A DNA stretch of 47,462 nucleotides from assembly GCF_001425485.1 (NCBI RefSeq), contig NZ_LMQW01000014.1, positions 1 through 47,462 on the forward strand. Reading direction: 5' to 3'. Under the pieces are notes generated by a model. It was not told the origin of the DNA and ran no database searches. It saw only the letters and a program-made list of their open reading frames with translations. How positions within the stretch are numbered: position 1 is the stretch's first letter; each line of letters opens with the position of its first letter. The position numbers were made by a program, and so were the translations under genes. Source of the DNA: Aureimonas sp. Leaf427 (lineage in GTDB: Bacteria > Pseudomonadota > Alphaproteobacteria > Rhizobiales > Rhizobiaceae). Of the stretch, positions 1,330 through 26,263 are shown piece by piece.

Positions 1330-2166
1330 TTACGCAGCGGCTGCGGCGCCGGCGAGCAAATCGGTGACAAGCATGTAGCCCGGCTCGTGGGTGATGGCGA
1401 AGTCAAGCTTGGCTTCCTGCAGAGCAAGTTGGGGCGTCACTCCACAGGCCCAAAAACCACAGACGTCCCCCGCCTCGATCACCGGCCGATCACCGAACTC
1501 GGGCTGCTGGATATCGGCGATGCCGATTTCGGAGGGATCACCGAGGTGCACGGGAGCGCCGTGCGCCAACGGAAGGCGCTCTGACAAGACAATCGCCTGA
1601 ATGAGGTCGTGCGGCTTGAAGGACCGCATCGACACGACCATCGAGCCCTTGAACGGACCAGCCGGCTCTACGGGCAAGTTGGTGGCGTACATCGGCACGT
1701 TGCGTCCGGCGCTGATATGCCTGATTTCGATGCCCACTTTCAAGATTGCGCTTTCGAAGGAAAAGGAGCAGCCAAGCGCGAAGGTCACAAGGTCGGGACG
1801 CCATAGTTCCTTGAGGTCGTCCACAGTCTCTGTATGGATACCCGAGCGATAGACGCGGTATCGCGGCACGTCAGTACGAATGTCGATCGAGCCGAGGCCG
1901 GGAAGGCCGGGATCGCCCGGCCTTCCGACTCCAAGCAGTGGGCAGCTTTTTGGGTTGCGCTCGCAAAATAGCTGGAAATCGGCTGCATGGGACTCCGGCA
2001 GGATCACGAGATTGGCCTGCATGTAGCCGTCGGCATAACCGGTGGTAGGCAGACGCAGCTCGCCACGGCGGATTGCTTCGCGGACCTTGGAGGCCGACAT
2101 TGCGCCATTTCCGGAGGTGGTGGTCAAGTTCACGTCTTGGGCCTGAACGTCCGAAAGTCTCGACAT
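1330..2166 (-). CDS. DUF1445 putative hydro-lyase (YcsI type; N-terminal half of D-glutamate cyclase)
   Basis: About 278 residues beginning MSRLSDVQAQDV. It matches the DUF1445/YcsI family along its length: the REAIRRGELRLPTTGYADGYMQANLVILP opening, the central CPLLGVGRPGDPGLP, the FALGCSFSFESAIL block with conserved Cys, the MRSFKPHDLIQAIVLSERLPLAHGAPVHLGDP stretch, and the late GDVCGFWACGVTPQLAL. The mammalian mitochondrial D-glutamate cyclase DGLUCY joins a DUF1445 domain to a DUF4392 domain. A DUF4392 protein is encoded separately at 13627-14694. The start at 2166 lies 4 bases past the stop of the upstream gene, so the two are probably translationally coupled. The enzymatic reaction of stand-alone members is not established. 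Confidence 0.88.
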   Translation of the reverse strand: MSRLSDVQAQDVNLTTTSGNGAMSASKVREAIRRGELRLPTTGYADGYMQANLVILPESHAADFQLFCERNPKSCPLLGVGRPGDPGLPGLGSIDIRTDVPRYRVYRSGIHTETVDDLKELWRPDLVTFALGCSFSFESAILKVGIEIRHISAGRNVPMYATNLPVEPAGPFKGSMVVSMRSFKPHDLIQAIVLSERLPLAHGAPVHLGDPSEIGIADIQQPEFGDRPVIEAGDVCGFWACGVTPQLALQEAKLDFAITHEPGYMLVTDLLAGAAAAA

Positions 2167-2170
2167 AGAC

Positions 2171-2587
2171 TCAGCTCGTCCCCAGGGCACTGAGCATCGC
2201 CTCGGCGATGGCGACGTCCTTTTCCGCGGGTCCGCCGGAGACGCCGACTGCGCCGATCACCGTCTTGCCGTCGCGGATCGGCAGACCGCCACCGAACACG
2301 ACATAGGGTCGGCGCCCACCGTGGTTGTCGAGGCCGTAGTAGAGGGCGCCAGGCTGCACGAGATCCATCCAGCTGCCGCTCGGCGAGCGCAGCGAAAGGG
2401 CGGTGTGAGCCTTGTTGTGAGCCAGCTCGACCGTGGAAAGCGCAGCGTCCCCCACACGTAGAAATGCCAGCAGATTGCCCCCCTGATCGAGGATTGCGAG
2501 TGAGGACGGCTCGTCCAGCTCGAGCGCCTTCGCCGCGCCAGCGTTCAACGCCTTGAAAGCGGCTTCGTGGGTGATTTGTTCAGCCAT
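2171..2587 (-). CDS. GlcG/HbpS family heme-binding-like protein
   Basis: A 138-residue protein of the GlcG/HbpS (DUF336) family. Diagnostic parts are AFKALNAGAAKALEL near the start, SLAILDQGGNLLAFLRVGDA, AHNKAHTALSLRSPS, YYGLDNHGGRRPYVVFGGGLPI and the C-terminal IGAVGVSGGPAEKDVAIAEAML. Family members bind heme or other small ligands and often sit in operons for two- or three-carbon acid and diol metabolism (glc, propanediol, PduO C-terminal-like domains). Here it follows the SDR gene by 42 bases and is almost joined to the DUF1445 gene. An accessory role for a pathway enzyme is inferred. Confidence 0.88.
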   Translation of the reverse strand: MAEQITHEAAFKALNAGAAKALELDEPSSLAILDQGGNLLAFLRVGDAALSTVELAHNKAHTALSLRSPSGSWMDLVQPGALYYGLDNHGGRRPYVVFGGGLPIRDGKTVIGAVGVSGGPAEKDVAIAEAMLSALGTS

Positions 2588-3448: not shown

Positions 3449-4570
3449 TCAGGCCGCGCTGCGCACGGTCTCCAAGATCGCTTCGTTGATGGCGGAAGCG
3501 GCTTCCATCTGTGGCATGTGGCCAGCTGCGGGGAACGACCGGAAGCGCACGTTCGGCGGCAGCCCATCGGCCTCGGCCACCGGAATGATGGCATCGTCCT
3601 CGCCCCAGAGAACCGTCACTGGGCACGTAAGCTTCGCCAGTTTGTCGCCGATCTGCTGCAGCTGGCCGTTTTCGTCCGCGATGGTCGCCGCCATTGCCGC
3701 CAATGACTCAGGCACGCCTTCTAGGCGTTTGAAGCGCAGCGTGCCTTCGACCATGTCGTTCGTGATCTTCGACGGATCGGCGAACAATAGCTCAAGGACC
3801 TTCTGTAGCGGGCGACGGCGCTCTGCGGAAACGAAGCCATCCAGGTATTCCCGGTTGATCTCGCGGCCGAGTCCGATCGGCGCGATCAGCGTCAGTGACG
3901 CCACCCGGGACTGATCCGCCGACGCGAGGGCAGTAGCGATCGCTCCGCCGAAGGAGTGCGCGACGAGATGGAACTTGCCGGGTGCGATAGCATCAACGGC
4001 TGCCGTCACCGACGCGACGATGCGGGCGAATATGTCTCCTTGCGAAACGGGCGAGGACGCGCCGTGTCCCGGCAGATCGAGCGAAACGGTCCGAATGGTC
4101 TCCGCGATCGCCGGCTGGTTGAAAAGCCAAGTCGTGTGGTCACCGCCGAAGCCGTGGATGAAAACTACCGTCGCATCAGACTCTAAGCCGGCTTCCGACA
4201 CGTTGATCGTACCGTCAGGGACTTCGATGAGGCGCGGTGCGTTACCTTCCACCGCCCCTTCCCCTGCTACGCCAGCCCGGTCGGCATATGTCTCGACGAA
4301 CGCGTCGATCTCTTCCTCGCTCGCCTCGCCGTCGACGATCACGGCAGCAAGGGCTCCAACAGGAGCCGTCGTTCCGATGGGCAGCACGATGCGCCGCAAC
4401 GTGCCGCTGGCCGCTGACTCAAGTACGTTGGTGACCTTGGTTGTCTCGATTTCAACAACCTCTTGGCCGCGGTCGACGTGACCGCCCACTTCCACGAGCC
4501 ATCCGCAGATCTTGCCTTCGGTCATCGTCATGCCCCACTTGGGCACGGTGACTGCCTCGATGCTGGCCAT
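3449..4570 (-). CDS. acoC: Lipoyl-domain/alpha-beta hydrolase protein (acetoin dehydrogenase E2 type)
   Basis: This 373-residue protein has an N-terminal lipoyl domain (residues 1-80) with the lipoylation lysine at about Lys45 in IETTKVTN. After a linker, an alpha/beta-hydrolase domain runs from about 131. It shows the oxyanion HGFGG (139-143), the nucleophile elbow HSFGG (Ser206), an acid in WGEDD (325-326) and the catalytic His351 in AAGHMP. This is the architecture of AcoC, the E2 of acetoin dehydrogenase, rather than a standard 2-oxo-acid dehydrogenase E2: there is no E3-binding domain and no CAT-type acyltransferase domain. It follows E1 beta by 6 bases. No dihydrolipoyl dehydrogenase (E3) gene is in the window, so E3 must come from elsewhere. 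Confidence 0.9.
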   Translation of the reverse strand: MASIEAVTVPKWGMTMTEGKICGWLVEVGGHVDRGQEVVEIETTKVTNVLESAASGTLRRIVLPIGTTAPVGALAAVIVDGEASEEEIDAFVETYADRAGVAGEGAVEGNAPRLIEVPDGTINVSEAGLESDATVVFIHGFGGDHTTWLFNQPAIAETIRTVSLDLPGHGASSPVSQGDIFARIVASVTAAVDAIAPGKFHLVAHSFGGAIATALASADQSRVASLTLIAPIGLGREINREYLDGFVSAERRRPLQKVLELLFADPSKITNDMVEGTLRFKRLEGVPESLAAMAATIADENGQLQQIGDKLAKLTCPVTVLWGEDDAIIPVAEADGLPPNVRFRSFPAAGHMPQMEAASAINEAILETVRSAA

Positions 4571-4576
4571 AGCTGC

Positions 4577-5584
4577 TTACCTTTTCACGATCTGGTGCAC
4601 CGCCTTCGCGATGGCCGCCGCACTTGGAACGTAGGCATCTTCGAGGACCGGTGAGTAGGGCACGGGAGTGTGGGGCGCCGTCACAAGCTTGATCGGCGCC
4701 TTAAGCGCATGGAAAGCCTTGTCGGCGAGCAATGCCGAGATGTCGGCGGCGACGCTGCAACGAGGGTTGGCCTCGTCTACGATAACGACCCGTCCGATCT
4801 CTTCGGCTAGCTCGACCAGCGTTTCCTCGTCCAGCGGCGAGGTCGTCCGCGGATCAACAACGCAGGCCGAGATTCCCTCCGATGAAAGCTGTCGCGCCGC
4901 TTCCTCGGCGACGATCGCCAGGCGGCCGATGCCGATGATCAAGACGTCCTTTCCGTCACGCGCGATCCGCGCTTCGCCGAAAGGGATCGTGTAGGAGCCG
5001 TCGGGCACATCGCCGATCGTGTCGTAGAGCATCTTGTTTTCAAGGAAGATGACCGGATCGTCGTCGCGGATCGCCTGGATCAACAGCCCCTTGGCGTCGT
5101 AGGGCGTCGATGGAATTACGACCTTGAGGCCGGGAATGTGGGTGAACAAGGGATAGAAGGCTTGGGTGTGCTGCGACCCGGAGCGGCTGCCGGCTCCATA
5201 AGTGGCGCGGATCACGAGAGGTGTCGTCGCACGCCCACCGAACATGTAGCGGAACTTGGCGATCTGGTTGGCGATCTGGTCAAAACAGACTCCCGCGAAA
5301 TCCACGAACATCAGTTCGGCAATGGGCCTGAGGCCCGTCAACGCCGCACCTGCGGCTGCGCCGATGAAGGCCGTTTCGCTGATCGGCGTGTCGCGGATGC
5401 GCTCGGAGCCAAACGCATCGAGGAGACCGCGCGTTACGCCGAACGCACCACCCCAAGCGTCCTTGACGCCGTTCGCGCCGGCGCCGCCAGTGAGGTCTTC
5501 GCCCATCATGATGACGCGCGGGTCACGGGCCATCTCCGAGCGAAGGGCTTCGTTGATAGCTTGCCGAAAGGATTTTTGCGACAT
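4577..5584 (-). CDS. acoB: 2-oxo-acid/acetoin dehydrogenase E1 component, beta subunit
   Basis: A transketolase-like E1 beta subunit of 335 residues beginning MSQKSFRQAINEALRSEM. Typical blocks are RVIMMGEDLTGG, the FGSERIRDTPISETAFIGAAAGAALTGLRPI stretch that contributes the cofactor-activating Glu, QHTQAFYPLFTHIPGLKVVIPSTPYDAKGLL, DDPVIFLENKMLYD, and the C-terminal transketolase domain with CVVDPRTTSPLDEETLVE. It pairs with the alpha subunit encoded just upstream (13 bases) to form the TPP-dependent E1 heterotetramer. The ATG at 5584 was chosen over an upstream in-frame ATG at 5728 because the extra sequence is Arg/Ser-rich and lies within the alpha gene. Acetoin specificity is suggested only by the AcoC-like partner. 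Confidence 0.93.
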   Translation of the reverse strand: MSQKSFRQAINEALRSEMARDPRVIMMGEDLTGGAGANGVKDAWGGAFGVTRGLLDAFGSERIRDTPISETAFIGAAAGAALTGLRPIAELMFVDFAGVCFDQIANQIAKFRYMFGGRATTPLVIRATYGAGSRSGSQHTQAFYPLFTHIPGLKVVIPSTPYDAKGLLIQAIRDDDPVIFLENKMLYDTIGDVPDGSYTIPFGEARIARDGKDVLIIGIGRLAIVAEEAARQLSSEGISACVVDPRTTSPLDEETLVELAEEIGRVVIVDEANPRCSVAADISALLADKAFHALKAPIKLVTAPHTPVPYSPVLEDAYVPSAAAIAKAVHQIVKR

Positions 5585-5597
5585 GGTCGTCGAGCCT

Positions 5598-6575
5598 TCA
5601 AATGTACTTGACGTAGACGTCGGTCGTAAGGGCGGACAGGTCGGGGAACGGCGCCGCTCGTGCCTTCTCCACCGCACTGTTAAGCAAAACCTCGATCTCG
5701 CCATCGATGTCGTCGAGCTGGTCCGCATCGATCAAGGCGGCCTCGCCCACGCGTTTGCGGAAGTTGAGTAGGCAATCGCGCCCCGAGCGCATCGCTGCCT
5801 TCTCTTCCGCGGTACGGTACGTATCGGGATCTCCGCTGTAATGGCCGTAATAGCGGGGAACGTGGATATGTAGCATGGTCGGGCCCCCGCCACCTCGCGC
5901 CCGCTGGACGGCTTCGCCCGCGGCCGCGTGAACGGCGAAGACGTCGGTGCCGTCCAATTCGAGGGTCGGGATGGCGAAGCTCTCGGCACGCAAGGTGAAA
6001 CTACCTGCCGATACGTGTGCGTTGAAGGTCGCCTCGCCGAACTCATTGTCTTCGATCACAAAGATCATCGGAAGCTTCCATATGGACGCTAAGTTGAAGC
6101 TTTCCGACATGGCACCTTCGTTCATCGCCCCGTCGCCCGCGAAAGCTACGGCGACGCGATCATTGCCAAGCACTTTGGCGGTCAGGGCGGCGCCGCAGGT
6201 GATGGGCACGCCACCTGCAACGATGCCGTTCGCCCCAAGCATGCCATGGCGGAGGTCGGCGATATGTTGTGATCCGCCTTTGCCGTTGCAGGTGCCTGTC
6301 GCCCGGCCGAACAGCTCTGCCATCATCGCATCGACATCGAGGCCCTTCGCGATTGCGTGGCCATGACCGCGATGCGTCGACGAAATGTAATCGCCGTCTT
6401 CTAGGTGAAGGCACACGCCGACCGCCGAGGCTTCCTGGCCAGCATAGAGGTGGGTGCTGCCCGGAATGTCACCGGTCCCCATCTCCTCCATGACGCGCTC
6501 TTCGAAGCGCCGGATCAGCCGCATCGATCTGTAAACGTTAACAAGCTGTTCGCGGGGCAATTGCAAAGCGGACAT
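5598..6575 (-). CDS. acoA: TPP-dependent dehydrogenase E1 component, alpha subunit
   Basis: A 325-residue E1 alpha subunit beginning MSALQLPREQL. It has the RRFEERVMEEM opening, the phosphate-contacting HRGHGH (68-73), and the thiamine-diphosphate and magnesium motif GDGAMNEG (148-155), closed by the Asn in EDNEFG (near 177). The late block HVPRYYGHYSGDPDTYR matches the conserved phosphorylation-loop region of the family. It is the first gene of the dehydrogenase trio and begins 92 bases after the ABC permease stop. The 5' end of the reading frame contains a sequence matching the LacI operator of this region (6530-6543). The substrate could be acetoin or another 2-keto or alpha-hydroxyketone compound. 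Confidence 0.93.
   Translation of the reverse strand: MSALQLPREQLVNVYRSMRLIRRFEERVMEEMGTGDIPGSTHLYAGQEASAVGVCLHLEDGDYISSTHRGHGHAIAKGLDVDAMMAELFGRATGTCNGKGGSQHIADLRHGMLGANGIVAGGVPITCGAALTAKVLGNDRVAVAFAGDGAMNEGAMSESFNLASIWKLPMIFVIEDNEFGEATFNAHVSAGSFTLRAESFAIPTLELDGTDVFAVHAAAGEAVQRARGGGGPTMLHIHVPRYYGHYSGDPDTYRTAEEKAAMRSGRDCLLNFRKRVGEAALIDADQLDDIDGEIEVLLNSAVEKARAAPFPDLSALTTDVYVKYI
6530..6543. promoter_or_regulatory. Candidate LacI-family operator inside the acoA 5' coding region
   Basis: TGTAAACGTTAACA lies 31-44 bases inside acoA. It differs by one base from the site in the leader of the lacI gene (21666-21679) and by two from the site in the promoter of the long operon (12599-12612). It could act as an intragenic operator controlling the dehydrogenase half of the operon, or be a chance match forced by the codons for LVNVY. 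Confidence 0.35.
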
Positions 6576-6667
6576 GGTGAATCCTACCTTTAAGGCTTCG
6601 CTGGGACTGGCGTGCGGCAATTCGGACTGTCGCGGTGCGTCCAGTGCAGTGCACTCGACTTGAGGCT

Positions 6668-13626: not shown

Positions 13627-14694
13627 CTATTTGATCTGACGCCAGTCGCCGCTGTCGCCTTTCCAGTTGGTGGAATGGCCGAGCGCGCGCATGACGCTGC
13701 CTCGTAATGCCGTGACGAGGCCGAACCATTCGTCGGCATGGATGCCATCGACCGCAGGCTCTGGCGCCATGAACATGCCGTCTACCCCGCCGAAGGTGAC
13801 ACAAAGTTCAATACAGCGCTTCTCCAGCGATGGCTCATGAAAGACGACCGGATTCTCCAGGAGGCAGGAGAGCGCGGCAACTAGCCCAGTGGCACCCCAG
13901 TTCGATACATTGGCGATGATCAGATGGTCGGCGGCGGTCGCGGCGCCGACGCCTCCGCGGCCGGGAATGCCGCAGTCTTTGGCTTTCGGAGAAAAAGTAG
14001 GCAGCGCCTCGGCAATGACGCCCATACCGAGTTCATTACCGCCGTCTCCGATGGCGATGAAAGGGATGTCCTGCTCCTGTGCGTTGCGAAAGAACTGATC
14101 GAGATCCGCGACCATCCCGTCCAATGGACGGCCACCAAGGCCGTGATACAATCCGTTCGCGTTGGCTCCCGGGCGTTCAATCGACAGCACCAACGAGGGT
14201 CGCGTCTCACTGAGTAATGCATCGGTCGCTGCCTTGCAGCCGACCGCATCTTTCGGCACTGTGCGAACGTATACGGGGCGAACGAACTCGATGGACCGGA
14301 TCTGCCCATCTTCCGGAAAGGGCAATGGTGCCAGACCGGCGCCGCGGCAGGTGCCGACCATCATCTCTTCCCAGTCATTGTCGACAAGGATGACCGTTTC
14401 GATCCCAAGACCGAGGAAGAGCGCTCTTGCGATCAGTGCAGCCCCGACTGGGCCGTCGGTTTCCGGGACCCCCGCGCCTTCAGGAAATCCGGTTGCGATT
14501 ACGACGGGTCCCTTTCGCTGCCGCACCGCATCTACGATAATCTGAGCGGCCTGCATGCAAGAGGGACCAGGCTGTTTGTCCTGCAAAGCGGCATAAAGGT
14601 TGGTGATCAACCCAACTCCGGTGAGATCAATCGCCATGAATTTTTCGATTGTCTCAGAAACGAGATCGTATTTTTTTGTATTCTTCTGGAGCAT
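13627..14694 (-). CDS. DUF4392 glutamate cyclase-like protein (C-terminal half of D-glutamate cyclase)
   Basis: A 355-residue stand-alone DUF4392 protein. Conserved parts include VVIATGFPEGAGVPETDGPVGAALIARAL, ETVILVDNDWEEMM, SLVLSIERPGANANGLYHGLGG (Glu-Arg-Pro), the Gly/Asn block FIAIGDGGNELGMG and NWGATGLVAALSCL. In animals this domain is fused behind DUF1445 in DGLUCY, which converts D-glutamate to 5-oxo-D-proline. Here the two halves are separate genes about 11 kb apart. The gene lies 9 bases after the serine/threonine dehydratase gene and 10 bases before ridA, and faces the PxpABC 5-oxoprolinase genes. A role in D-glutamate or related amino acid conversion is inferred; the bacterial proteins are barely characterised. 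Confidence 0.9.
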   Translation of the reverse strand: MLQKNTKKYDLVSETIEKFMAIDLTGVGLITNLYAALQDKQPGPSCMQAAQIIVDAVRQRKGPVVIATGFPEGAGVPETDGPVGAALIARALFLGLGIETVILVDNDWEEMMVGTCRGAGLAPLPFPEDGQIRSIEFVRPVYVRTVPKDAVGCKAATDALLSETRPSLVLSIERPGANANGLYHGLGGRPLDGMVADLDQFFRNAQEQDIPFIAIGDGGNELGMGVIAEALPTFSPKAKDCGIPGRGGVGAATAADHLIIANVSNWGATGLVAALSCLLENPVVFHEPSLEKRCIELCVTFGGVDGMFMAPEPAVDGIHADEWFGLVTALRGSVMRALGHSTNWKGDSGDWRQIK

Positions 14695-14703
14695 GGCGGG
14701 TCC

Positions 14704-15705
14704 TCAGGCGATGTAGCTTGCGAACTTGTCGGGATCGACGTTGCCGCCGCTTAAAATCACGGCAACGTTCTTGTTTCTTACGTCCAACTTGCCAGAAAGG
14801 ACGGCTGCCAGCGCTACTGCACCGCCGGGCTCGACCACCAATTTCAGTTCGCTGTAGGCGAATCGAACCGCCTCGATGACTTCCGTATCCGTGGCGCTTA
14901 GCCCGCCAGCAAGATGGGCGCTGCAGACGGGAAGAGTGTAAAAGCCAGGCGTCGGGACAAGCAGGGCGTCGCAAATCGAGAGGGCAGAAGGATCGTTTCT
15001 CTGCGGTTTCCCGCTCGCAAGCGAACGTGCCATGTCGTCGAAGTCAGCGGGCTCGACGCTGTAGACGGCTGTTCCCGGGGACGCCCCGGTCACGGCGACA
15101 GAGGTACCGGCCACGAGCCCGCCGCCGCTGCAGCATGCGAGAACGGCGTCGAGTTTGATTCCAGCTTCTTCCGCCTGTTCCACGATCTCGAGCCCGACCG
15201 TTCCTGCCCCCAGAATAATGTCTGGGTCGTCGTAGGGAGGGACAATCACCGCGCCTGTCGTGGCGGCGATCTCAGCACCGATCGCTTCGCGCGTTTCCTT
15301 CGTCTTGTCGTAAAGACGCACTACCGCGCCATTGGCACGTGCGCCGTCGATCTTGGTCTTCGGCGCTTCCTGGGGCATCAGTATCGTTGCTTTCACCGCC
15401 TGACGCGAAGCGGCGTAGGACAATGCGAGCGCGTGATTTCCTGAAGACCAAGCAACAATCCCGTTCTTTCGCTGGACTTCGTCGAACTGCAGGATCCGGT
15501 TCAGGGCGCCGCGAAACTTGAACGATCCGGTGGTCTGTAGCGTCTCCGCCTTCAGCCAGATCGTACCACCGAGGCGATCGTCCAGTCGCTCGCTTCGAAG
15601 TAGCGGCGTGCGAACGATCTTTCCTCGTATCCGCTCGTGGGCTGCCCTCACGTCGTCAAGGGTGGGATTGAAGTCGTGATAGTATGTGGATGGCACGTCA
15701 AGCAT
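14704..15705 (-). CDS. PLP-dependent threonine/serine dehydratase (or serine/aspartate racemase-type) enzyme
   Basis: A fold-type II PLP enzyme of 333 residues. The cofactor lysine is Lys63 in SFKFRGA. The SSGNHALALSYAA block binds the substrate carboxylate, and ACCSGGGLVAG is the glycine loop that holds the PLP phosphate. The length lacks a C-terminal ACT regulatory domain, so it resembles catabolic threonine dehydratase, threo-3-hydroxyaspartate dehydratase or serine racemase. These cannot be separated by eye. The ATG at 15705 has GGAG about 8 bases upstream. It is the first enzyme gene downstream of a LysR regulator and sits 9 bases before DUF4392. Dehydratase products (enamines) fit with the RidA gene in the same set. 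Confidence 0.9.
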   Translation of the reverse strand: MLDVPSTYYHDFNPTLDDVRAAHERIRGKIVRTPLLRSERLDDRLGGTIWLKAETLQTTGSFKFRGALNRILQFDEVQRKNGIVAWSSGNHALALSYAASRQAVKATILMPQEAPKTKIDGARANGAVVRLYDKTKETREAIGAEIAATTGAVIVPPYDDPDIILGAGTVGLEIVEQAEEAGIKLDAVLACCSGGGLVAGTSVAVTGASPGTAVYSVEPADFDDMARSLASGKPQRNDPSALSICDALLVPTPGFYTLPVCSAHLAGGLSATDTEVIEAVRFAYSELKLVVEPGGAVALAAVLSGKLDVRNKNVAVILSGGNVDPDKFASYIA

Positions 15706-16728: not shown

Positions 16729-17391
16729 CTAGCGACGACTTCGCTGGAGTGCGGCGATCACCAAGCGTTCCGATCGTCGCAAGTAGCTTTCCATGAGGCG
16801 CGAGGCGTCGGCGATCTGCTCCGCCTCGATGAGTTCCACGAGCTTTGCATTCGTCTCGATGAATGGTTCGTGCAGATGTGCAGTATCAGGGAACTGGCCG
16901 AAAACCAGACGCAGCTCAGCGAGGACCAACTCGAAACAAGCGCTGAGACGTGAACTGTCGCAGAACTCCACCATGGCACGGTGATACGTCATGTTGATTG
17001 TCCCAACTTCCTGCCAGTCGCTGACATCGCGGGCTTCTTCCGCCTTTCCAACCAAGTGTCGCATCCGACCGAGCGCCGGATGGTGCCGGCTCGCTGCCCC
17101 GATCGCACCTTGCTGGATCACCGAACGAACGCGGTAGATGTCGATAACTGAGGCCTCGTCAGGCGCTCTCACAAATACGCCGCGGTGAGGGACATGCACC
17201 AAGAGCCGTTGGCTGGTGAGAAGGCGAAAGACTTCACGAAGCGTGTTGCGGGAGATGCCGAACTGTGCCGCGATCTTCTGTTCCGAAAGACGCTCGCCCG
17301 GACGGAAATGCCCTGTGATCAGCAGGTCACGGATTTGCGACGCGACGATCTCGGACAAAGGTCCGTCGGCAAGCGGCTCTTCCGTTTCCAT
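16729..17391 (-). CDS. GntR family regulator with FCD domain (FadR subfamily)
   Basis: About 220 residues starting [17 protein letters not shown] GntR winged helix comes first ([51 protein letters not shown]). An all-helical FCD effector domain follows, with metal-site-like residues in [16 protein letters not shown] and [11 protein letters not shown] prefer the start at 17391 to the ATG at 17454, because the longer version reads through a palindrome that looks like the operator. It is divergent from pxpA and is the best candidate regulator of the PxpABC-biotin carboxylase genes, responding to a carboxylic acid. Confidence 0.9.
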
Positions 17392-17443
17392 CCGTGTGTC
17401 GAACCCTTTTTCAACGCCGCGACAAACGCAGCGCTTATGGATC

Positions 17444-17454
17444 TTGTTGAACAA
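17444..17454. promoter_or_regulatory. Candidate GntR/FadR-type operator between gntR and pxpA
   Basis: TTGTTGAACAA is an 11-base palindrome (TTGT-N3-ACAA) about 50 bases before the pxpA start and about 50 before the chosen gntR start. FCD-type GntR regulators often bind TTGT/TGGT half-sites in such divergent gaps, so it could control both directions. Confidence 0.4.
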
Positions 17455-17502: not shown

Positions 17503-18288
17503 ATGGCAAGCATCGACCTGAACAGCGATCTTGGCGAAAGCTTTGGCCCTTGGAAGATGGGAGACGATCGCTCGATGCTCGCCACCGTGACGAGCGCCAA
17601 CGTTGCGTGCGGGTTCCATGCCGGCGATCCAGCCGGCATTCTGGACGTTCTTCGCGAAGCGGCGAAGCAAGGCGTTTGCGTTGGTGCCCATGTTGGCTAC
17701 CGAGACCTCGTCGGTTTCGGACGCCGCAGCATGGACCCGACGAGCGCCGAACTCGTCGGCGATACGATCTACCAGATCGGAGCCCTGCAGGGGCTCGCGA
17801 GAGCCGCCGAAACGACGGTGCGCTACGTGAAGCCGCACGGCGCGCTCTACAACACCATGGCCACGGATACCCGCCAGGCGGCGGACGTGATCGCCGCCAT
17901 CAAAGCGATCGATCCGGAATTGGTGCTGATGGCGCTTTCCGGCGCTCCCGTCGTGAAGCAGGCGCGCGCCGCCGGCCTCAGAGTCGTCTGCGAGACCTTC
18001 GCCGACCGCGCCTACAATGCCGACGGCAGCCTCGTAAGCCGCCGCCTGCCAGGCGCGGTCATCCATGACGCAGACGCTGTAGCGGCCCGCATGCTTCGCC
18101 TCGTCGAGGAAGGGCGCCTCACGACGATCGACGGCACAGACATCGTGCTGGAAGCCCAGTCCATTTGCGTCCATGGCGACAACCCTGAGGCCGTCGCGAT
18201 CGCTCGGGCCCTCCGGGAGGCCTTTGCCGCCCATGGCGTAGAAACGAAGCCCTTCGTTCAAGGTCGAGGCGGCGCGTCCAATGGTTGA
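17503..18288 (+). CDS. pxpA: 5-oxoprolinase subunit PxpA (LamB/YcsF family)
   Basis: A 261-residue YcsF/LamB protein starting [22 protein letters not shown], the diagnostic N-terminus with its acidic active-site cluster. Further blocks are [68 protein letters not shown] and the late [11 protein letters not shown]. In bacteria PxpA works with PxpB and PxpC to hydrolyse 5-oxoproline to glutamate using ATP. The start at 17503 matches the family. The longer frame reaching back to 17185 lies inside the divergent gntR. Its stop overlaps the start of the next gene by 8 bases, so the subunits are made together. Confidence 0.95.
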
Positions 18289-19879
18289 CCGTCTTCGCTT
18301 CCTGCCGTGCGGCGGCGACGGCCTGCTTGTCGAGTTGGCCGATCTCGAAACCACCCTGACACTGCTCGATCGCCTGCTGGCAGCTCGGCCGGAAGGAGTG
18401 ACGGAGATCGTACCCGCCGCGCACACGGTGCTGGTCCGCTTCAACCCTTTGTTCACGAGCCCCCGGCAACTCGCGGACGTGATCGCCCGCAACGATCTGT
18501 CGCTCCGCAGCGAACGAGAGGGCGAGGTGTTCGAGATTCCCGTCGTCTACGACGGCGAAGATCTGGCCGATGTTGCCGAACACCTCGGCTGGTCTATCGA
18601 GGAAGTGGTCCGCCGTCATTCGGACGCCACCTATACTGTCGCCTTCACGGGTTTCGCACCGGGCTTCGCCTACATGACCTGCGACGATCCCGGCTTCGAC
18701 GTTCCCCGCCGCAAAAGCCCTCGCGTGCGGATCCCTGCCGGCTCAGTCGCGATCGCCGGCAAGTTCGGCGGCATCTATCCAAGCGACAGCCCCGGTGGCT
18801 GGCAGATTCTCGGGACCACGCCCCTTCGCATGTGGGACACAGGCCGGGAGCGCGCCGCAATGCTTGCGCCAGGCGATCGCGTGCGTTTCCGCCGCATCTC
18901 CGCAGGAGCGCATGCATCCTCGCCCGGCCACCCGGAACAAACCTCGCAAGCTGTGCCGGCGAGGGAGGGCCTCCTTGTCACTCGAGCCGATCGTCCGGCC
19001 TTTTTCCAGGATCTTGGCCGCGCCGGCATGGCCGGCCAGGGCGTTTCGAAATCGGGCGCGCTCGATCGTGCGGCGATCCGGGAGGCCAACCTCTGCGTCG
19101 GTAACCGGCTTGGCGAAGCGGCAATCGAGATCACCTACGGGGGCTTCGCTCTTCTCGCGGACCGCCCGGTGACGGTCGCGGCGGCGGGCGCCCCCTGCTA
19201 CCTGACGATCCGCAGGACCAACCGTCCTACGGTCTCTGCGCCGACGGGTCGGCCCTTTGCCCTCGATGCGGGCGACGAGCTCGTGTTCGAAGCGCCCGCG
19301 GAAGGCATGCGCAGCTATCTCGCGGTGCGCGGCGGCTTCAGCGTCGACCCCGTCCTCGGCTCGGCTTCCACCGACACGCTCGCAAAGGTCGGCCCCGCGC
19401 CCATCGCACGGGGCGAAGTCCTCGTCCCGGCGGACCGGGCGAACGGCTCCGTCGATCCCGACCGACCGCAGCAGAAGGCGCTGCCGACCGCCCTCGACAC
19501 AGTTTGGCTCGATGTCGTGCTTGGCCCCCGCACCGACTGGTTCACCGATCACGGGCTGCGTACGCTTCTGGCGCAGGACTGGACGGTCACGGCCGCATCG
19601 AGTCGCGTCGGCATGCGCCTATCCGGCGCGACGCCGCTTGAACGCAGGGACACGGCCGAGCTGGCTTCCGAAGGCACGGTGCCCGGAGCCATCCAGGTGC
19701 CGCACGACGGCCAGCCCGTCCTGTTTCTTGCCGACCATCCGATCACAGGGGGCTATCCGGTGATCGGGGTCCTGGCCGCCCATCATCTGGATCTCGCCGG
19801 CCAGATCCCGATCGGCGCCCGCATCCGCTTCAAGGCCGTCACCGCATTCGAGCCGCAGTCCAGGGAAACCGAACGATGA
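18281..19879 (+). CDS. PxpB-PxpC fusion (KipI-KipA type biotin-dependent carboxyltransferase family)
   Basis: A 532-residue fusion. Residues 1-220 match KipI/PxpB (allophanate hydrolase subunit 1), with [56 protein letters not shown] and [17 protein letters not shown]. Residues 225-532 match KipA/PxpC (subunit 2), with [33 protein letters not shown] and, near the end, [30 protein letters not shown]. In E. coli and B. subtilis these are two proteins. The same pair forms the carboxyltransferase domain of urea carboxylase. It overlaps pxpA by 8 bases and the biotin carboxylase gene by 4 (ATGA). Possible activities are 5-oxoprolinase or carboxyl transfer to a lactam or amide nitrogen. Confidence 0.93.
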
Positions 19880-21618
19880 AGAAGCTGCTGATCGCCAATC
19901 GGGGCGAGATCGCCATCCGTGTGGCCCGTGCCGCACGCGACTATTGCGTCACCTCCGTCGCACTTTACTCCGACGCGGACGCGGGCTCGTTGCATGCGGA
20001 ACTCGCCGACGAGGCCTATGGGCTCGGCCCCGGCCGGCCGGCCGACACCTATCTGAACATCGAGAAGATCATTTCCATTGCCGCCTTGGCTGGCGCTGAC
20101 GCAATTCATCCCGGCTACGGCTTCCTTTCGGAACGCGCGGAGTTCGCGCAGGCGGTGATCGATGCTGGCCTCATCTGGGTCGGACCTCCCCCGGCAGTGA
20201 TCACCGCACTGGGCGACAAGGTTGAGGCGCGGCGCATCGCAAAGCATGTCGGCGCGCCCCTCGTGAAGGGATCCGACGGTCCGCTGGCCTCGGCTGCCGA
20301 AGCCGTTGCCTTCGCGCGGGAAGTCGGCCTTCCCATGGCGATCAAGGCGGCCTTCGGCGGGGGCGGGCGCGGCATGAAAGTGGCCCATCGCCTTGAGGAA
20401 GTGGGCGAACTTTTCGACTCGGCCGTCCGGGAGGCGACGGAAGCTTTCGGACGGGGCGAATGCTACGCGGAACAGTTCCTGGCCCAGCCGCGCCACATCG
20501 AGGCGCAAGTCCTCGCGGACCGACACGGGCAGACCGTCGTCCTTGGAACGCGCGACTGCTCGCTGCAAAGACGCAACCAGAAGCTCGTGGAGGAGGCACC
20601 CGCTCCTTTCATCACCGAAGACCAGCGGACCAGGATCCATGACGCGGCCCGCGCCATCTGCTCGGAGGCCGGCTATGTCGGAGCGGGAACGGTGGAGTTC
20701 CTCCTGTCCCGCAACGGCGTCATCTCCTTTCTCGAAGTGAACACCCGGCTCCAGGTCGAGCATCCCGTGACGGAGGCGACGACCGATCTCGACATCGTGG
20801 TGGAACAGCTCCGCATCGCCGACGGCCTTCCTCTGACGGTTACGCAGACGCCTGAGCCTCGGGGACATGCCTTCGAGTTCCGCATCAACGCCGAGGATCC
20901 CGGCCGCGGCTTTTTACCGACGCCCGGGCGGATCGACGTGTTCCGTCCGCCGTCCGGTCCGGGCGTTCGGCTTGACACGGGCGTCGAGGCAGGTCGCGAG
21001 ATCCCCGGCCTCTACGATTCCATGATGGCCAAGCTGATTGTCACCGGGCGGACGCGCGAGGAAGCCCTTGCACGCGCACGCAGGGCGCTTTCCGAATTCC
21101 GGATCGAAGGCGTCGCATCGGTGTTGCCGTTCCATCGGGCGGTCGTCGAGGAGCCGGCCTTCACCGGCGAGAACGGCTTCGGTATCTTCACTACCTGGAT
21201 CGAAAGCGAGTTCCGCGGCGTGTCGCCTGCGCCTCGGGTGGATACAGTGGACGGTGGTCTTCTGCGTACCTTCATCGAAATCGACGGCAAGCGTCATGTC
21301 TTGGCGCTGCCCGCCGCACTTTTTAGCGGCTCGCTCGTCACAGCCACGTCATCCGCCTCCGCAACCGCCGTCACGACGTTCGAACGCGGCGCCGTGATGA
21401 CACCGATCCCCGGGATCCTTCAAGCTTGGATCGCCGAAGACGGCGCCATGGTGAGGGAGGGCGACGTTGTGGGACAGATCGAGGCGATGAAGATGGAAAC
21501 CCGCATTCATGCGCCGACATCGGGACGAATTCGCTGGTCTTCGAAACCCGGGGACACCATCGGCCCCGGCACCGTTTTAGCGACGATCGAAGACGTAGAG
21601 CTCGACGCGAATGGCTAA
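19876..21618 (+). CDS. Biotin carboxylase fused to a biotin carboxyl carrier domain
   Basis: A 580-residue protein. Residues 1-445 form a biotin carboxylase: [22 protein letters not shown], the HPGYGFLSERAEFA block, the ATP-grasp glycine loop AAFGGGGRGMKV, and the catalytic EVNTRLQVEHPVTE. After a linker, residues 500-575 form a BCCP domain whose biotinylated lysine is Lys539 in EAMKMET. No carboxyltransferase domain follows. The gene overlaps the PxpB-PxpC fusion by 4 bases, and that protein resembles the carboxyltransferase domain of urea carboxylase, so a two-chain biotin-dependent carboxylase is likely. Routine annotation would call it an acetyl-CoA carboxylase biotin carboxylase, but no accD/accA-type partner is present. 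Confidence 0.93.
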   Translation: MKKLLIANRGEIAIRVARAARDYCVTSVALYSDADAGSLHAELADEAYGLGPGRPADTYLNIEKIISIAALAGADAIHPGYGFLSERAEFAQAVIDAGLIWVGPPPAVITALGDKVEARRIAKHVGAPLVKGSDGPLASAAEAVAFAREVGLPMAIKAAFGGGGRGMKVAHRLEEVGELFDSAVREATEAFGRGECYAEQFLAQPRHIEAQVLADRHGQTVVLGTRDCSLQRRNQKLVEEAPAPFITEDQRTRIHDAARAICSEAGYVGAGTVEFLLSRNGVISFLEVNTRLQVEHPVTEATTDLDIVVEQLRIADGLPLTVTQTPEPRGHAFEFRINAEDPGRGFLPTPGRIDVFRPPSGPGVRLDTGVEAGREIPGLYDSMMAKLIVTGRTREEALARARRALSEFRIEGVASVLPFHRAVVEEPAFTGENGFGIFTTWIESEFRGVSPAPRVDTVDGGLLRTFIEIDGKRHVLALPAALFSGSLVTATSSASATAVTTFERGAVMTPIPGILQAWIAEDGAMVREGDVVGQIEAMKMETRIHAPTSGRIRWSSKPGDTIGPGTVLATIEDVELDANG

Positions 21619-23885: not shown

Positions 23886-24767
23886 TCAGGGTTGGGTGAT
23901 CTCGCCGGTTCGTGGATCGACGGCGTCGGCGGCACTGGCCTGGTTTTGCTCCGCCCTGGCGGCGGCGCGTCTTCGTCCGGCGGATTGCTTGAGGCGGTAG
24001 CTGTCGCCGTTCATCGTCAGGATATGGACGTGGTGCGTCAGCCGATCGAGCAGCGCGCCGGTCAGCCGCTCGGACCCCAGGACGCTCGTCCAGTCCTCGA
24101 ATGGAAGATTGGACGTGATGATCGTCGAGCCGCGCTCGTAGCGCTGCGAGAACACCTCGAACAGAAGCTCGGCACCGGTTGCCGACAGCGGCACGTAGCC
24201 GAGTTCATCGACGATCAGCAGCTTCACCGCCTGAAGTTCGCGTTGCTGCTTCAGAAGGCGACGCTCGTCGCGGGCTTCCATGAGCTGGTGGACGAGCGCC
24301 GCCGCGGTCGTGAACGCGACGGTGAAGCCCTTCTGACACGCGGCCAGACCGAGCGCCAAGGCCACATGGCTCTTGCCGGTGCCCGAGTTGCCGAGCGCGA
24401 TGACGTTCTCCCGACGCAGGATGAACTCGCACCGCGCCAACTCGAGCACCAGCATCTTGTTGAGGCTGGGGATGGCGGTGAAGTCGAACGTGTCGAGGCT
24501 TTTAACCGCCGGGAACCGCGCCGCTTTGATCCGCCGCTCGATCGTACGGCGCTCCCTGTCGATCAGCTCCAGCTCGATCAGGCGCAGCAGATAACGGGGA
24601 TGGTCGACGCCCTCGCGGGCGCATTCGCGGGCGACCTTGTCGTACTCCCGCAGCACCGTCGGCAGCTTCAACTGCTTCAGATGGTGCGCGAGCAGGACCT
24701 GCGGCGTACCACTCGTCGTGCCCGTCGGCATCGCGTCCGTGCCCGTCTTGCCTGCCTGGCCGCTCAT
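23886..24767 (-). CDS. istB: IS21-family helper ATPase IstB
   Basis: A 293-residue AAA+ ATPase of the IstB/DnaC-like type, starting MSGQAGKTGTDAM. It has the HHLKQLKLPTVLREYDKVARECAREG N-terminal region, Walker A GNSGTGKSH (about residues 117-125), Walker B LLIVDELGYVPLS, and a sensor block STIITSNLPFEDW. IstB assembles on DNA and activates the IstA transposase. The ATG at 24767 overlaps the istA stop as ATGA. The much longer in-frame extension to 25454 lies inside istA and is not real. The C-terminal 40 residues are Ala/Arg-rich. Confidence 0.95.
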   Translation of the reverse strand: MSGQAGKTGTDAMPTGTTSGTPQVLLAHHLKQLKLPTVLREYDKVARECAREGVDHPRYLLRLIELELIDRERRTIERRIKAARFPAVKSLDTFDFTAIPSLNKMLVLELARCEFILRRENVIALGNSGTGKSHVALALGLAACQKGFTVAFTTAAALVHQLMEARDERRLLKQQRELQAVKLLIVDELGYVPLSATGAELLFEVFSQRYERGSTIITSNLPFEDWTSVLGSERLTGALLDRLTHHVHILTMNGDSYRLKQSAGRRRAAARAEQNQASAADAVDPRTGEITQP

Positions 24768-26263
24768 GCCGCGTGGCTCTCGACCAGGACGGCGTAGTCG
24801 GCCGCGGCCGTCGTCCTGACATCCATCTTCGGCAGATGTGGATAGCGAGCCAGATCGAGCCGCAGGGGCCGTCGTTCGATCCGCGACAGGGCGATCAGCT
24901 TGATCGCGTCGAACCCGATGGCGCCGAGCCGGATCGCTTCGCTGACGGCACCTGCCACGATCTCCATCGGCATCGCCTCCATCAGCCGCAAGACCTGGAT
25001 GAACTCCCGTTTGCCCCGGTTGCCCATGCGGGCTTCGAGAAGATGGCGCAGATGCTGAAAGGCCTCGGGCAGGTCCCAGCCCTGCAACGGTGCGGCCTGG
25101 TCGAGAGCGTTCGGCTTCATCTCGATCAGCATCAGGTAGTGCAGCGGGTCGAAGACGAAGGCGCCGCTCGCATAGGACCGCCGGTGCCGGGCGATCTCCT
25201 CGCCGGCGCACAGGATCACCACCTCGTCGACGAAGCCCTTCACCAGAACGTCGCGGAAGCCGAACGCCGTCGGCACCGAATAGTCGTTGCAACGATAACG
25301 AACCAGAGAGGTCGACGAGACCCGGGCAGCCCGCTTCTCGCACGGCTCCAGCGCCACCGCGGGCAGATCCCGGAAGGTGGCGAGGTCGGCCGCGAGGCGC
25401 TCGCCGATCGTCTCGGCATGGCGTCCGGCGATCTCGCCTTGCCGTTGCCGACAACGATCCGCCAGCATCGCGTTCAGATCCTCAAAGCTGGCGGCACGCG
25501 GAATCGGCGTCATGAAGTTCGACCGGGCATACTTCACCAGTCCTTCGACCTTGCCCTTGTCGTTCCCCTTGCCGGGCCGTCCGAAGCGGTCCCGGAACAG
25601 GTAATGGCTCTGAAGTTCGGTGAAGGCCCGGGTGCGCTCCCGCTTGCCGTCGCCACAGATCCTGGCCACCGCGATCTTGGTGTTGTCGTAGAGGATCGAC
25701 AGCGGCACGCCCCCGAAAAAGGCGAAGGCCGACACGTGCCCCTCGAGAAAGGCCTCCGTCGTCTCCCTCGGGAAAGCCATCACGAACGGCGCATCCGACT
25801 GCGGCACGTCCATGCAGAAGAAGTGGATCTTCTGCCGGACCCCGCCGATCACGCCGACGGCCTCGCCGAAGTCCACCTGGGCATGACCCGGTGGATGCGC
25901 CAGCGGAACGAAGGTCTCGCGCAGGCGCCCTCGGGCGATCCGCACATGGTCCTTCACCACCGTGTAGCCACCCGCATAGCCGTGCTCGTCACGCAGCCGC
26001 TCGAAGATTCGCTTGGCCGTGTGACGCTGCTTCACCGGCGCCACTCCGTCCGCCGCCAGGATCGCGTCGATGACCGGGAGCAGCGTTCCCAGCTTCGGCT
26101 TGGCGACCGGCTTCGTGCGCGTGTAGCCCGGTGGCAACGAGAACCGGCACATCTTCGAGATCGTCTCGCGACTCAACCCGAACACCCGAGCTGCGTCGCG
26201 TTGGCTGTTCTTCTCGATCATCACGAAGTGCCGAACGGCGGCGTAGACTTCCACGGCAAACAT
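24764..26263 (-). CDS. istA: IS21-family transposase IstA
   Basis: A 499-residue DDE transposase. The N-terminal helix-turn-helix (VRHFVMIEKNSQRDAARVFGLSRETISKMCRFS) is followed by the RNase-H-like core, with acidic positions in HAQVDFGEAVGVIG, LSILYDNTKIAVA and GNDKGKVEGLVKYARSNF. The C-terminal region has CNDYSVP and a beta-barrel-like part. Full family length, no internal stop, and coupled to istB by an ATGA overlap, so the element looks functional. Confidence 0.95.
   Translation of the reverse strand: MFAVEVYAAVRHFVMIEKNSQRDAARVFGLSRETISKMCRFSLPPGYTRTKPVAKPKLGTLLPVIDAILAADGVAPVKQRHTAKRIFERLRDEHGYAGGYTVVKDHVRIARGRLRETFVPLAHPPGHAQVDFGEAVGVIGGVRQKIHFFCMDVPQSDAPFVMAFPRETTEAFLEGHVSAFAFFGGVPLSILYDNTKIAVARICGDGKRERTRAFTELQSHYLFRDRFGRPGKGNDKGKVEGLVKYARSNFMTPIPRAASFEDLNAMLADRCRQRQGEIAGRHAETIGERLAADLATFRDLPAVALEPCEKRAARVSSTSLVRYRCNDYSVPTAFGFRDVLVKGFVDEVVILCAGEEIARHRRSYASGAFVFDPLHYLMLIEMKPNALDQAAPLQGWDLPEAFQHLRHLLEARMGNRGKREFIQVLRLMEAMPMEIVAGAVSEAIRLGAIGFDAIKLIALSRIERRPLRLDLARYPHLPKMDVRTTAAADYAVLVESHAA

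Follow-up and report, generated by a model that had tools for sequence, protein, structure and literature searches.

The DNA analysed here, referred to as the window, is a stretch of 47,462 nucleotides that makes up the entire contig 14 of the 5.43-Mb genome of Aureimonas sp. Leaf427. It contains a cluster of three genes encoding PxpA, a PxpB-PxpC fusion (PxpB-C), and a protein composed of biotin carboxylase (BC) and biotin carboxyl carrier protein (BCCP) domains (BC-BCCP). An initial annotation of the same sequence had placed these genes at 17503-21618; all three lie there on the + strand, and Pfam analysis showed their domains. It had regarded them as a split enzyme resembling urea carboxylase, in which PxpA takes the place of allophanate hydrolase and which could carboxylate a lactam, amide, or guanidine nitrogen before hydrolysis. 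We suggest that the three genes may instead encode a biotin-dependent 5-oxoprolinase, which would open the ring of 5-oxoproline, glutamate in cyclic form. The features discussed are listed in table 1.

Table 1. Genes of the three-gene cluster and selected neighbours in the window
Feature	Position	Strand	Details
PxpA (LamB/YcsF family), predicted metal-dependent ring-opening hydrolase	17503..18288	+	261 aa, 27.3 kDa
PxpB-PxpC fusion (CT_C_D then CT_A_B), predicted carboxyltransferase	18281..19879	+	532 aa, 56.8 kDa
BC-BCCP, AccA3-like	19876..21618	+	580 aa, 61.8 kDa, biotinyl Lys539
GntR-FCD regulator, divergent, candidate 5-oxoproline sensor	16729..17454	-	Pfam GntR + FCD
Pyridoxal phosphate (PLP)-dependent dehydratase, threonine/hydroxyaspartate type, possible pathway partner	14704..15705	-	Pfam PALP, E 6.4e-70
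D-glutamate cyclase-like protein, C-terminal type (PF14336, DUF4392), probable pathway partner	13627..14694	-	Pfam E 2.4e-72
D-glutamate cyclase domain protein (PF07286, DUF1445), 15 kb from the operon	1330..2190	-	Pfam E 1e-58

The Three-Gene Cluster and Its Conservation

The first protein matches the LamB_YcsF family (PF03746, E = 1.3e-99) and scores 370.7 bits against NF003814 (cut-off 226), and is thus a PxpA subunit of PxpABC by this model. Residues D9, E12, H112, D168, H224, and D226 are conserved in all 203 aligned rows, among which E. coli is counted twice. PxpB-C matches CT_C_D (E = 2.3e-61) and CT_A_B (E = 1.5e-80). Both of its parts fall under the NCBI equivalog cut-offs (PxpB part, TIGR00370, 131.6 vs 145.55; PxpC part, NF045499, 181.6 vs 500), and only the cut-off of the broad TIGR00724 is passed (233.8 vs 230.2). 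Foldseek matched its AlphaFold model (mean pLDDT 90.4) to TTHA0988, MSMEG_0435-0436, E. coli YbgJK, and urea carboxylase (E = 4e-19 for the last).

BC-BCCP contains the Biotin_carb_N, CPSase_L_D2, Biotin_carb_C, and Biotin_lipoyl domains, and its residues 2-571 match the structures 5mlk (E = 3.3e-197) and AccA3 (E = 6.7e-194). It is 47% identical to E. coli AccC and keeps 13 of the 13 residues that we take to form the BC active site; the biotinyl motif is EAMKM. An intact BC site and a biotinyl lysine, as expected of a biotin-dependent carboxylase, are therefore both present. No carboxyltransferase (CT) domain was found among the Pfam matches of this protein, as the initial annotation had stated, and the absence of a gap before its gene proved to be a 4-base overlap (ATGA) with the PxpB-C gene, which in turn overlaps that of PxpA by 8 bases. 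The anatomy of the cluster, in which PxpA and PxpB-C are accompanied by a BC-BCCP without a carboxyltransferase, is thus confirmed. It had also been expected that the third gene would be mislabelled as acetyl-CoA carboxylase. This held for one of ten plasmid relatives; eight others are named 'biotin carboxylase N-terminal domain-containing protein' and one 'ATP-grasp domain-containing protein'.

To examine the distribution of the cluster, plasmids were searched by tblastn, giving 399 records. The order PxpA, PxpB-C, BC-BCCP was found in all ten plasmid regions that were opened, with a PF07286-type gene in between in three. A scan of named genomes confirmed at least 551 relatives, the best 80 of which were kept and are thus picked by similarity; they come from Rhizobiales, Pseudomonas, Cupriavidus, Photorhabdus, Xenorhabdus, Gilliamella, Kineococcus, Cryobacterium, and others. 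BC-BCCP follows PxpB-C in 79 of these best 80 loci, the exception being L053. In a sample of 199 Pseudomonadota genomes, CT_A_B was detected in 88, at 126 places, four of them in Leaf427 itself; 120 of the 122 others were taken (one partial match at a contig end and one weak match were omitted). These comprise 37 urea carboxylases, 63 split PxpB/PxpC sets without BC, 10 split sets with BC nearby, and 10 fused sets, with a limit of 3.5 kb for BC adjacency (L167, whose BC lies farther away on the opposite strand, was scored as lacking it).

BC-BCCP lies directly downstream of all ten fused genes of this phylum sample. In L198 the fused type is encoded in two frames, with BC-BCCP next door. When the 99 fused loci classed as BC-linked were recounted, BC and BCCP were found in one frame, downstream, and on the same strand in every one. 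The adjacency in 10 of 10 and 79 of 80 loci rules out chance as the cause of this neighbourhood. PxpA occurs within the stretch of all ten fused sets, 8 of the 10 split sets with BC, 55 of the 63 without BC, and none of the 37 urea carboxylases. In a sample of the genus Pseudomonas, in which the fusion alone was counted, it is present in 12 of 59 genomes, including the one on which the sample was centred.

Descent of the Subunits and Two Types of PxpB/PxpC

Like urea carboxylase, the window proteins include BC, BCCP, and a KipI/KipA-type CT (Pfam). However, all 37 sampled urea carboxylases have BC, CT_A_B, and CT_C_D in one frame (the BCCP query matched in 15), in the order BC-CT_A_B-CT_C_D and with no PxpA in the stretch, whereas the window has two chains in which CT_C_D precedes CT_A_B. 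We then compared their descent. In a quick tree built from the concatenated PxpB and PxpC parts (115 of the 171 rows prepared, 13 signature columns excluded, with composition warnings), the window falls in a branch (Shimodaira-Hasegawa-like approximate likelihood ratio test [SH-aLRT] 99) that also contains each of the 26 actinobacterial PxpB/PxpC rows entered, among them that of Mycobacterium smegmatis, and urea carboxylases form a separate branch (100), joined by split sets such as L005. In a BC tree, also quick and with composition warnings, which included 20 of the 99 fused-set rows and from which two short and seven duplicate rows had been removed, all 20 group with ten actinobacterial BC-BCCP chains in one branch (99), and the BCs of urea carboxylases and of L005-type sets fall elsewhere. 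This tree contained no named AccA3; the label AccA3-type refers to the BC-BCCP make-up and to the match of the window protein to AccA3.

In the urea carboxylase of Kluyveromyces lactis, Lys1605 is described as the likely general base (PMC5770610). Counted along the alignment, this column holds Lys in all 37 urea carboxylases and in L005, but Arg in the window (Arg143) and in all 90 fused-set rows. Judged from these sequences, neither the CT nor the BC of the window shares a common branch with urea carboxylases, and a split urea carboxylase by descent is ruled out by the domain order, the Lys-to-Arg change, and both trees.

A second set in the same genome, L005 (contig 50, 152000-164000), encodes PxpA, an 80-aa BCCP, BC, and a PxpB'/PxpC' pair, and so combines PxpA with BC, BCCP, and a pair of CT genes at a single locus, as the window does. 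Unlike in the window, its CT branches with urea carboxylases (100) and keeps the general-base Lys, and its BC is near AccC. On sequence grounds, this CT grouping and Lys make L005 a better candidate than the window for a genuinely urea-carboxylase-like split enzyme. The L005 signature is also found in L171, with no BC within the fetched stretch. Another locus, L209, has CT_C_D, CT_A_B, BCCP, and BC, with no PxpA in the stretch; it branches beside urea carboxylases and is possibly another N-carboxylase. Two further loci on contig 12 of Leaf427 are pxpA, pxpB, pxpC sets without BC that carry the canonical signature described below, giving four sets in this genome.

The signature of the window PxpB-C is F162, D365, L367, P372, R417, W420, V443, H486, P487, and V494. 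Phe162, Leu367, and Val494 occur in all 90 fused-set rows, whereas sets without BC mostly have the canonical Gln162 (56 of 67 rows), Arg/Lys367 (51 of 67), and Lys/Arg494 (58 of 67). Urea carboxylases have Tyr at 162 and Leu at 367 in 37 of 37 and Cys at 494 in 36, with one gap. In the CT active-site comparison with urea carboxylase that had been proposed, sites 162, 367, and 494 are hydrophobic, aromatic, or Cys in both, but the general base differs. This comparison omits the plasmid loci L038-L047 and L053, enters E. coli twice, and includes 79 similarity-picked rows among the 90. In the phylum sample, a non-basic residue occupies site 494 in 17 of the 20 sets that have BC nearby vs 9 of the 63 that do not (L165, one of the nine, has a gap); Fisher's test of signature against BC adjacency gave P = 1.1e-8, a value inflated by kinship. 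PxpA differs as well: at position 64, all 89 fused-type sets carry Val or Ile, and 57 of the 58 sets without BC carry Pro; among 45 actinobacterial rows without local BC, the residue is Val in 39, Ile in 2, Leu in 1, and Pro in 3.

Three split sets scored as BC-adjacent (L202, L207, and L214) have the canonical signature, a CT in the E. coli branch, and BCs in the branch of E. coli AccC, which indicates that adjacency alone is not proof. For the fused type, the partnership of PxpB-C with BC-BCCP is well supported.

The relatives in actinobacteria were examined in 98 genomes of the class that includes Kineococcus. CT_A_B was found in 59, and 58 of 73 places were taken; the remainder were 11 long frames resembling urea carboxylase and 4 matches that were partial or below threshold. 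Four of the 58 are urea-carboxylase-like, and the window signature pattern is present in 53 of the other 54. BC-BCCP lies beside only two of these 54; one of them (L306) is in the genome on which the sample was centred, chosen for its fused set, which leaves 1 of 53. The M. smegmatis pair MSMEG_0435-MSMEG_0436 (PDB 3mml) has the window signature pattern and shares the window's CT branch (SH-aLRT 99 with the signature columns excluded), although it consists of two unfused chains annotated as allophanate hydrolase subunits 2 and 1. PDB entry 9yx5, released on 2025-11-26, bears the title 'Structure of the long chain acyl-CoA carboxylase complex from Mycobacterium smegmatis with MSMEG_0435-MSMEG_0436 bound', and the AccA3 sequence is also present among its chains. 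This carboxylase complex, in which a close PxpB/PxpC pair is bound and AccA3 is present, together with the fidelity of the operon, supports the proposal that BC-BCCP, a KipI/KipA-like CT, and PxpA constitute one enzyme unit.

BC and BCCP are separate in E. coli acetyl-CoA carboxylase, and the enzyme of Pseudomonadota generally keeps them apart. Our reading is that PxpABC of the actinobacterial type would borrow a housekeeping AccA3-type chain in actinobacteria and was carried into Pseudomonadota along with its own AccA3-like gene, BC and BCCP being apart there. AccA3 (598 aa in the PDB), a BC-BCCP chain of similar length to that of the window, is common to several acyl-CoA carboxylases of M. 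tuberculosis and serves acyl-CoA carboxyltransferases (PMC11001197); the window operon has no such carboxyltransferase.

Substrate, Proposed Reaction, and Alternative Explanations

To investigate the possible substrate, we analysed the gene partners of the cluster. The plasmid operon L047 reads GntR, DUF969, DUF979, pyroglutamyl peptidase (PF01470), PxpA, PxpB-C, BC-BCCP. Among 89 similarity-picked fused loci, a GntR homologue is found at 75, PF07286 at 41, NRAMP at 41, DUF969/979 at 14, and the peptidase at 8; the counts for the ten sampled fused loci are 6, 4, 3, 2, and 2. Some partners of the 5-oxoproline type also adjoin sets without BC: the peptidase and DUF969/979 at 7 of 63, PF07286 at 5, and NRAMP at 1, with the GntR homologue at none. 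The window itself has PF14336, PF07286, and GntR, a gene context of the 5-oxoproline type known for PxpABC. We take PF07286 and DUF4392 to be the two halves of human D-glutamate cyclase, a producer of 5-oxo-D-proline. In Corynebacterium glutamicum, the GntR-type regulator PxpR binds 5-oxoproline and PxpABC converts 5-oxoproline, specifically 5-oxo-L-proline, to glutamate (PMC13274462). In view of these partners (peptidase, PF07286, DUF969/979, NRAMP, and GntR) and of PxpR/PxpABC, the substrate of the window enzyme is most likely 5-oxoproline.

A plausible scheme is the following. BC, whose domains and residues are intact, would use ATP and bicarbonate to make carboxybiotin on BCCP; the biotin arm would bring the carboxyl group to PxpB-C, where it could be transferred to the lactam nitrogen of L- or D-5-oxoproline; PxpA would then hydrolyse the activated ring, and the carbamate would lose CO2 to leave glutamate. 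The BC and biotin sites, the CT fold, the PxpA residues, the operon, and the complex of a relative are observed; that 5-oxoproline receives the carboxyl group, and in what sequence the steps follow, is inferred. The N-carboxylation before hydrolysis that was first put forward would fit for a lactam, but gene partners pointing to 5-oxoproline speak against urea or guanidine. The net reaction would be 5-oxoproline + ATP + 2 H2O -> glutamate + ADP + Pi, identical to that of the known enzyme, and because of this the mechanism could have been overlooked in plain assays.

Taken together, operon linkage, the 9yx5 complex, BC and CT ancestry, active-site residues, gene partners, and PxpA position 64 lead us to assign a probability of roughly 55% to a biotin-dependent 5-oxoprolinase encoded by the three genes. 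Several observations weigh against it. The general-base Lys is Arg143 in fused sets, just as it is Arg in 66 of 67 sets without BC, and PxpA His63 is replaced by Gln in 31 of 203 rows. The signature is near-universal in the actinomycete sample without local BC, and so could be a mark of descent only. A tree-aware test of signature against BC held 5 independent pairs and gave no significance, so that the link rests on about two CT origins; the claim of significance for it was withdrawn. In L053, from a metagenome-assembled genome, no BC-BCCP accompanies the fused PxpB-C, and what matches best in that genome is a BC alone (53% identical). The 9yx5 entry is known here by its title and chain names, and the pair may contact another subunit or be bound by accident. 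Finally, a paper on caprolactamase, citing the Pseudomonas putida 5-oxoprolinase, states that earlier work reports no need for bicarbonate; it gives this enzyme a component A of 64 + 51 kDa, a hexamer of dimers, and a component B of 82 kDa (PMC8453981). The corresponding window masses are 62 kDa for BC-BCCP, 57 kDa for PxpB-C, and 82 kDa for three PxpA, which is a match in size only.

The same biotin-dependent machinery might act on another lactam or cyclic amide, for example hydroxylated 5-oxoproline or 5-oxo-D-proline alone, and pass its product to the nearby dehydratase and RidA-like genes. The window and two Sinorhizobium relatives do have a threonine/hydroxyaspartate-type dehydratase beside DUF4392, the two plasmid loci continue into glyoxylate genes, and the D-glutamate cyclase domains, given the cyclase activity we presume, suggest the D form; nevertheless, the pyroglutamyl peptidase in some fused operons, its presence with DUF969/979 beside seven sets without BC, and the 5-oxo-L-proline substrate of C. 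glutamicum PxpABC make this unlikely. Slightly less likely still is an ordinary, phosphorylating ATP-dependent PxpABC to which BC-BCCP is an add-on, acting as a regulator or scaffold or as an independent carboxylase that only happens to be encoded in the operon. In its favour, Arg143 is common to fused sets and to the sets without BC that occupy 63 of the 120 sampled places, and in work from 2017 attributed to Niehaus, the canonical PxpA, PxpB, and PxpC of B. subtilis reportedly restore activity without a biotin protein. The near-perfect adjacency to fused PxpB-C, the operon's want of any other carboxyltransferase for BC-BCCP to serve, the 9yx5 complex, and the loss of basic residues from the PxpB-C signature sites all disfavour an add-on. 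As for a true split urea carboxylase, or another urea or guanidine N-carboxylase with PxpA replacing allophanate hydrolase, the three activities and the fold match are shared, but the trees, the CT subdomain order, the lack of PxpA near the 37 sampled urea carboxylase genes, Arg143, and the gene partners render it very improbable.

The known PxpABC (pxpBCA in E. coli; YcsF, KipI, and KipA in B. subtilis) is built from the three subunit families seen in the window and shares part of its gene partners, but has no BC-BCCP, mostly Gln162 and basic residues at 367 and 494, and Pro at PxpA 64. Returning to the biotin-dependent reading, we tentatively propose, with somewhat less confidence than for the window itself, that bacterial '5-oxoprolinases' comprise two enzymes: a phosphorylating one (E. 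coli, B. subtilis) and a biotin-dependent lactam carboxylase, the latter represented by nearly all PxpABC sets of the sampled actinomycetes and by the fused proteobacterial sets. Meister's P. putida enzyme may, given the sizes above, be of the latter type.

Full-text searches of an open-access library gave no paper uniting PxpABC and biotin carboxylase as one enzyme, which is weak evidence of novelty, and the word 'carboxylase' is absent from the main text of the C. glutamicum PxpABC paper (PMC13274462). Lombard and Moreira give split UCT homologues working with other BCs as one of two possibilities (PMC3199775). One paper lists additional BC and BCCP genes, as well as pxpB/pxpC, as special to the Lactiplantibacillus pentosus group and treats them as unrelated; pxpB/pxpC are annotated there as 'biotin-dependent carboxyltransferase family protein' (PMC12427679), a family name by which biotin was already hinted at; these genes may be one BC-linked set in lactobacilli. 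In another study, pxpA and accC are named only within expression lists (PMC7642360).

If a biotin-dependent 5-oxoprolinase is correct, there would be a second, CO2- and biotin-using chemistry for the conversion of 5-oxoproline to glutamate in damage repair and salvage, unrecognised beside direct phosphorylation. Actinobacterial nitrogen salvage would be tied to the biotin chain that feeds lipid synthesis, the PxpB/PxpC pair bound in a mycobacterial acyl-CoA carboxylase would be explained, and PxpB/C residues 162, 367, and 494 together with PxpA 64 would offer a sequence test for the two types in annotated genomes.

Neighbouring Genes in the Window

No RNA families or tRNAs were found in the window. 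Beyond the GntR-FCD gene lie genes for a LysR protein, the PLP-dependent dehydratase, and the DUF4392 protein, in that order. The dehydratase is under every NCBIfam equivalog cut-off among those shown. It also adjoins a DUF4392 gene in the Sinorhizobium loci L038 and L039, where DUF4392 is likewise close to the PxpA, PxpB-C, BC-BCCP set. Downstream of the set, both plasmids carry glcF-type oxidase genes and the bhc genes for glyoxylate use, a hint of a broader pathway. The set is present in Sinorhizobium meliloti Rm41. A PF07286 gene sits inside the operon in many relatives.

Downstream of the operon is a LacI regulator gene, and beyond it a transposase gene with an rve domain (24764-26263), presumably IS21 istA-like. 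Positions 3449-6620 encode E1 alpha, E1 beta, and a lipoyl-alpha/beta hydrolase protein, near the PF07286 protein and a short-chain dehydrogenase/reductase (SDR); this group resembles what we take to be an acetoin dehydrogenase cluster.

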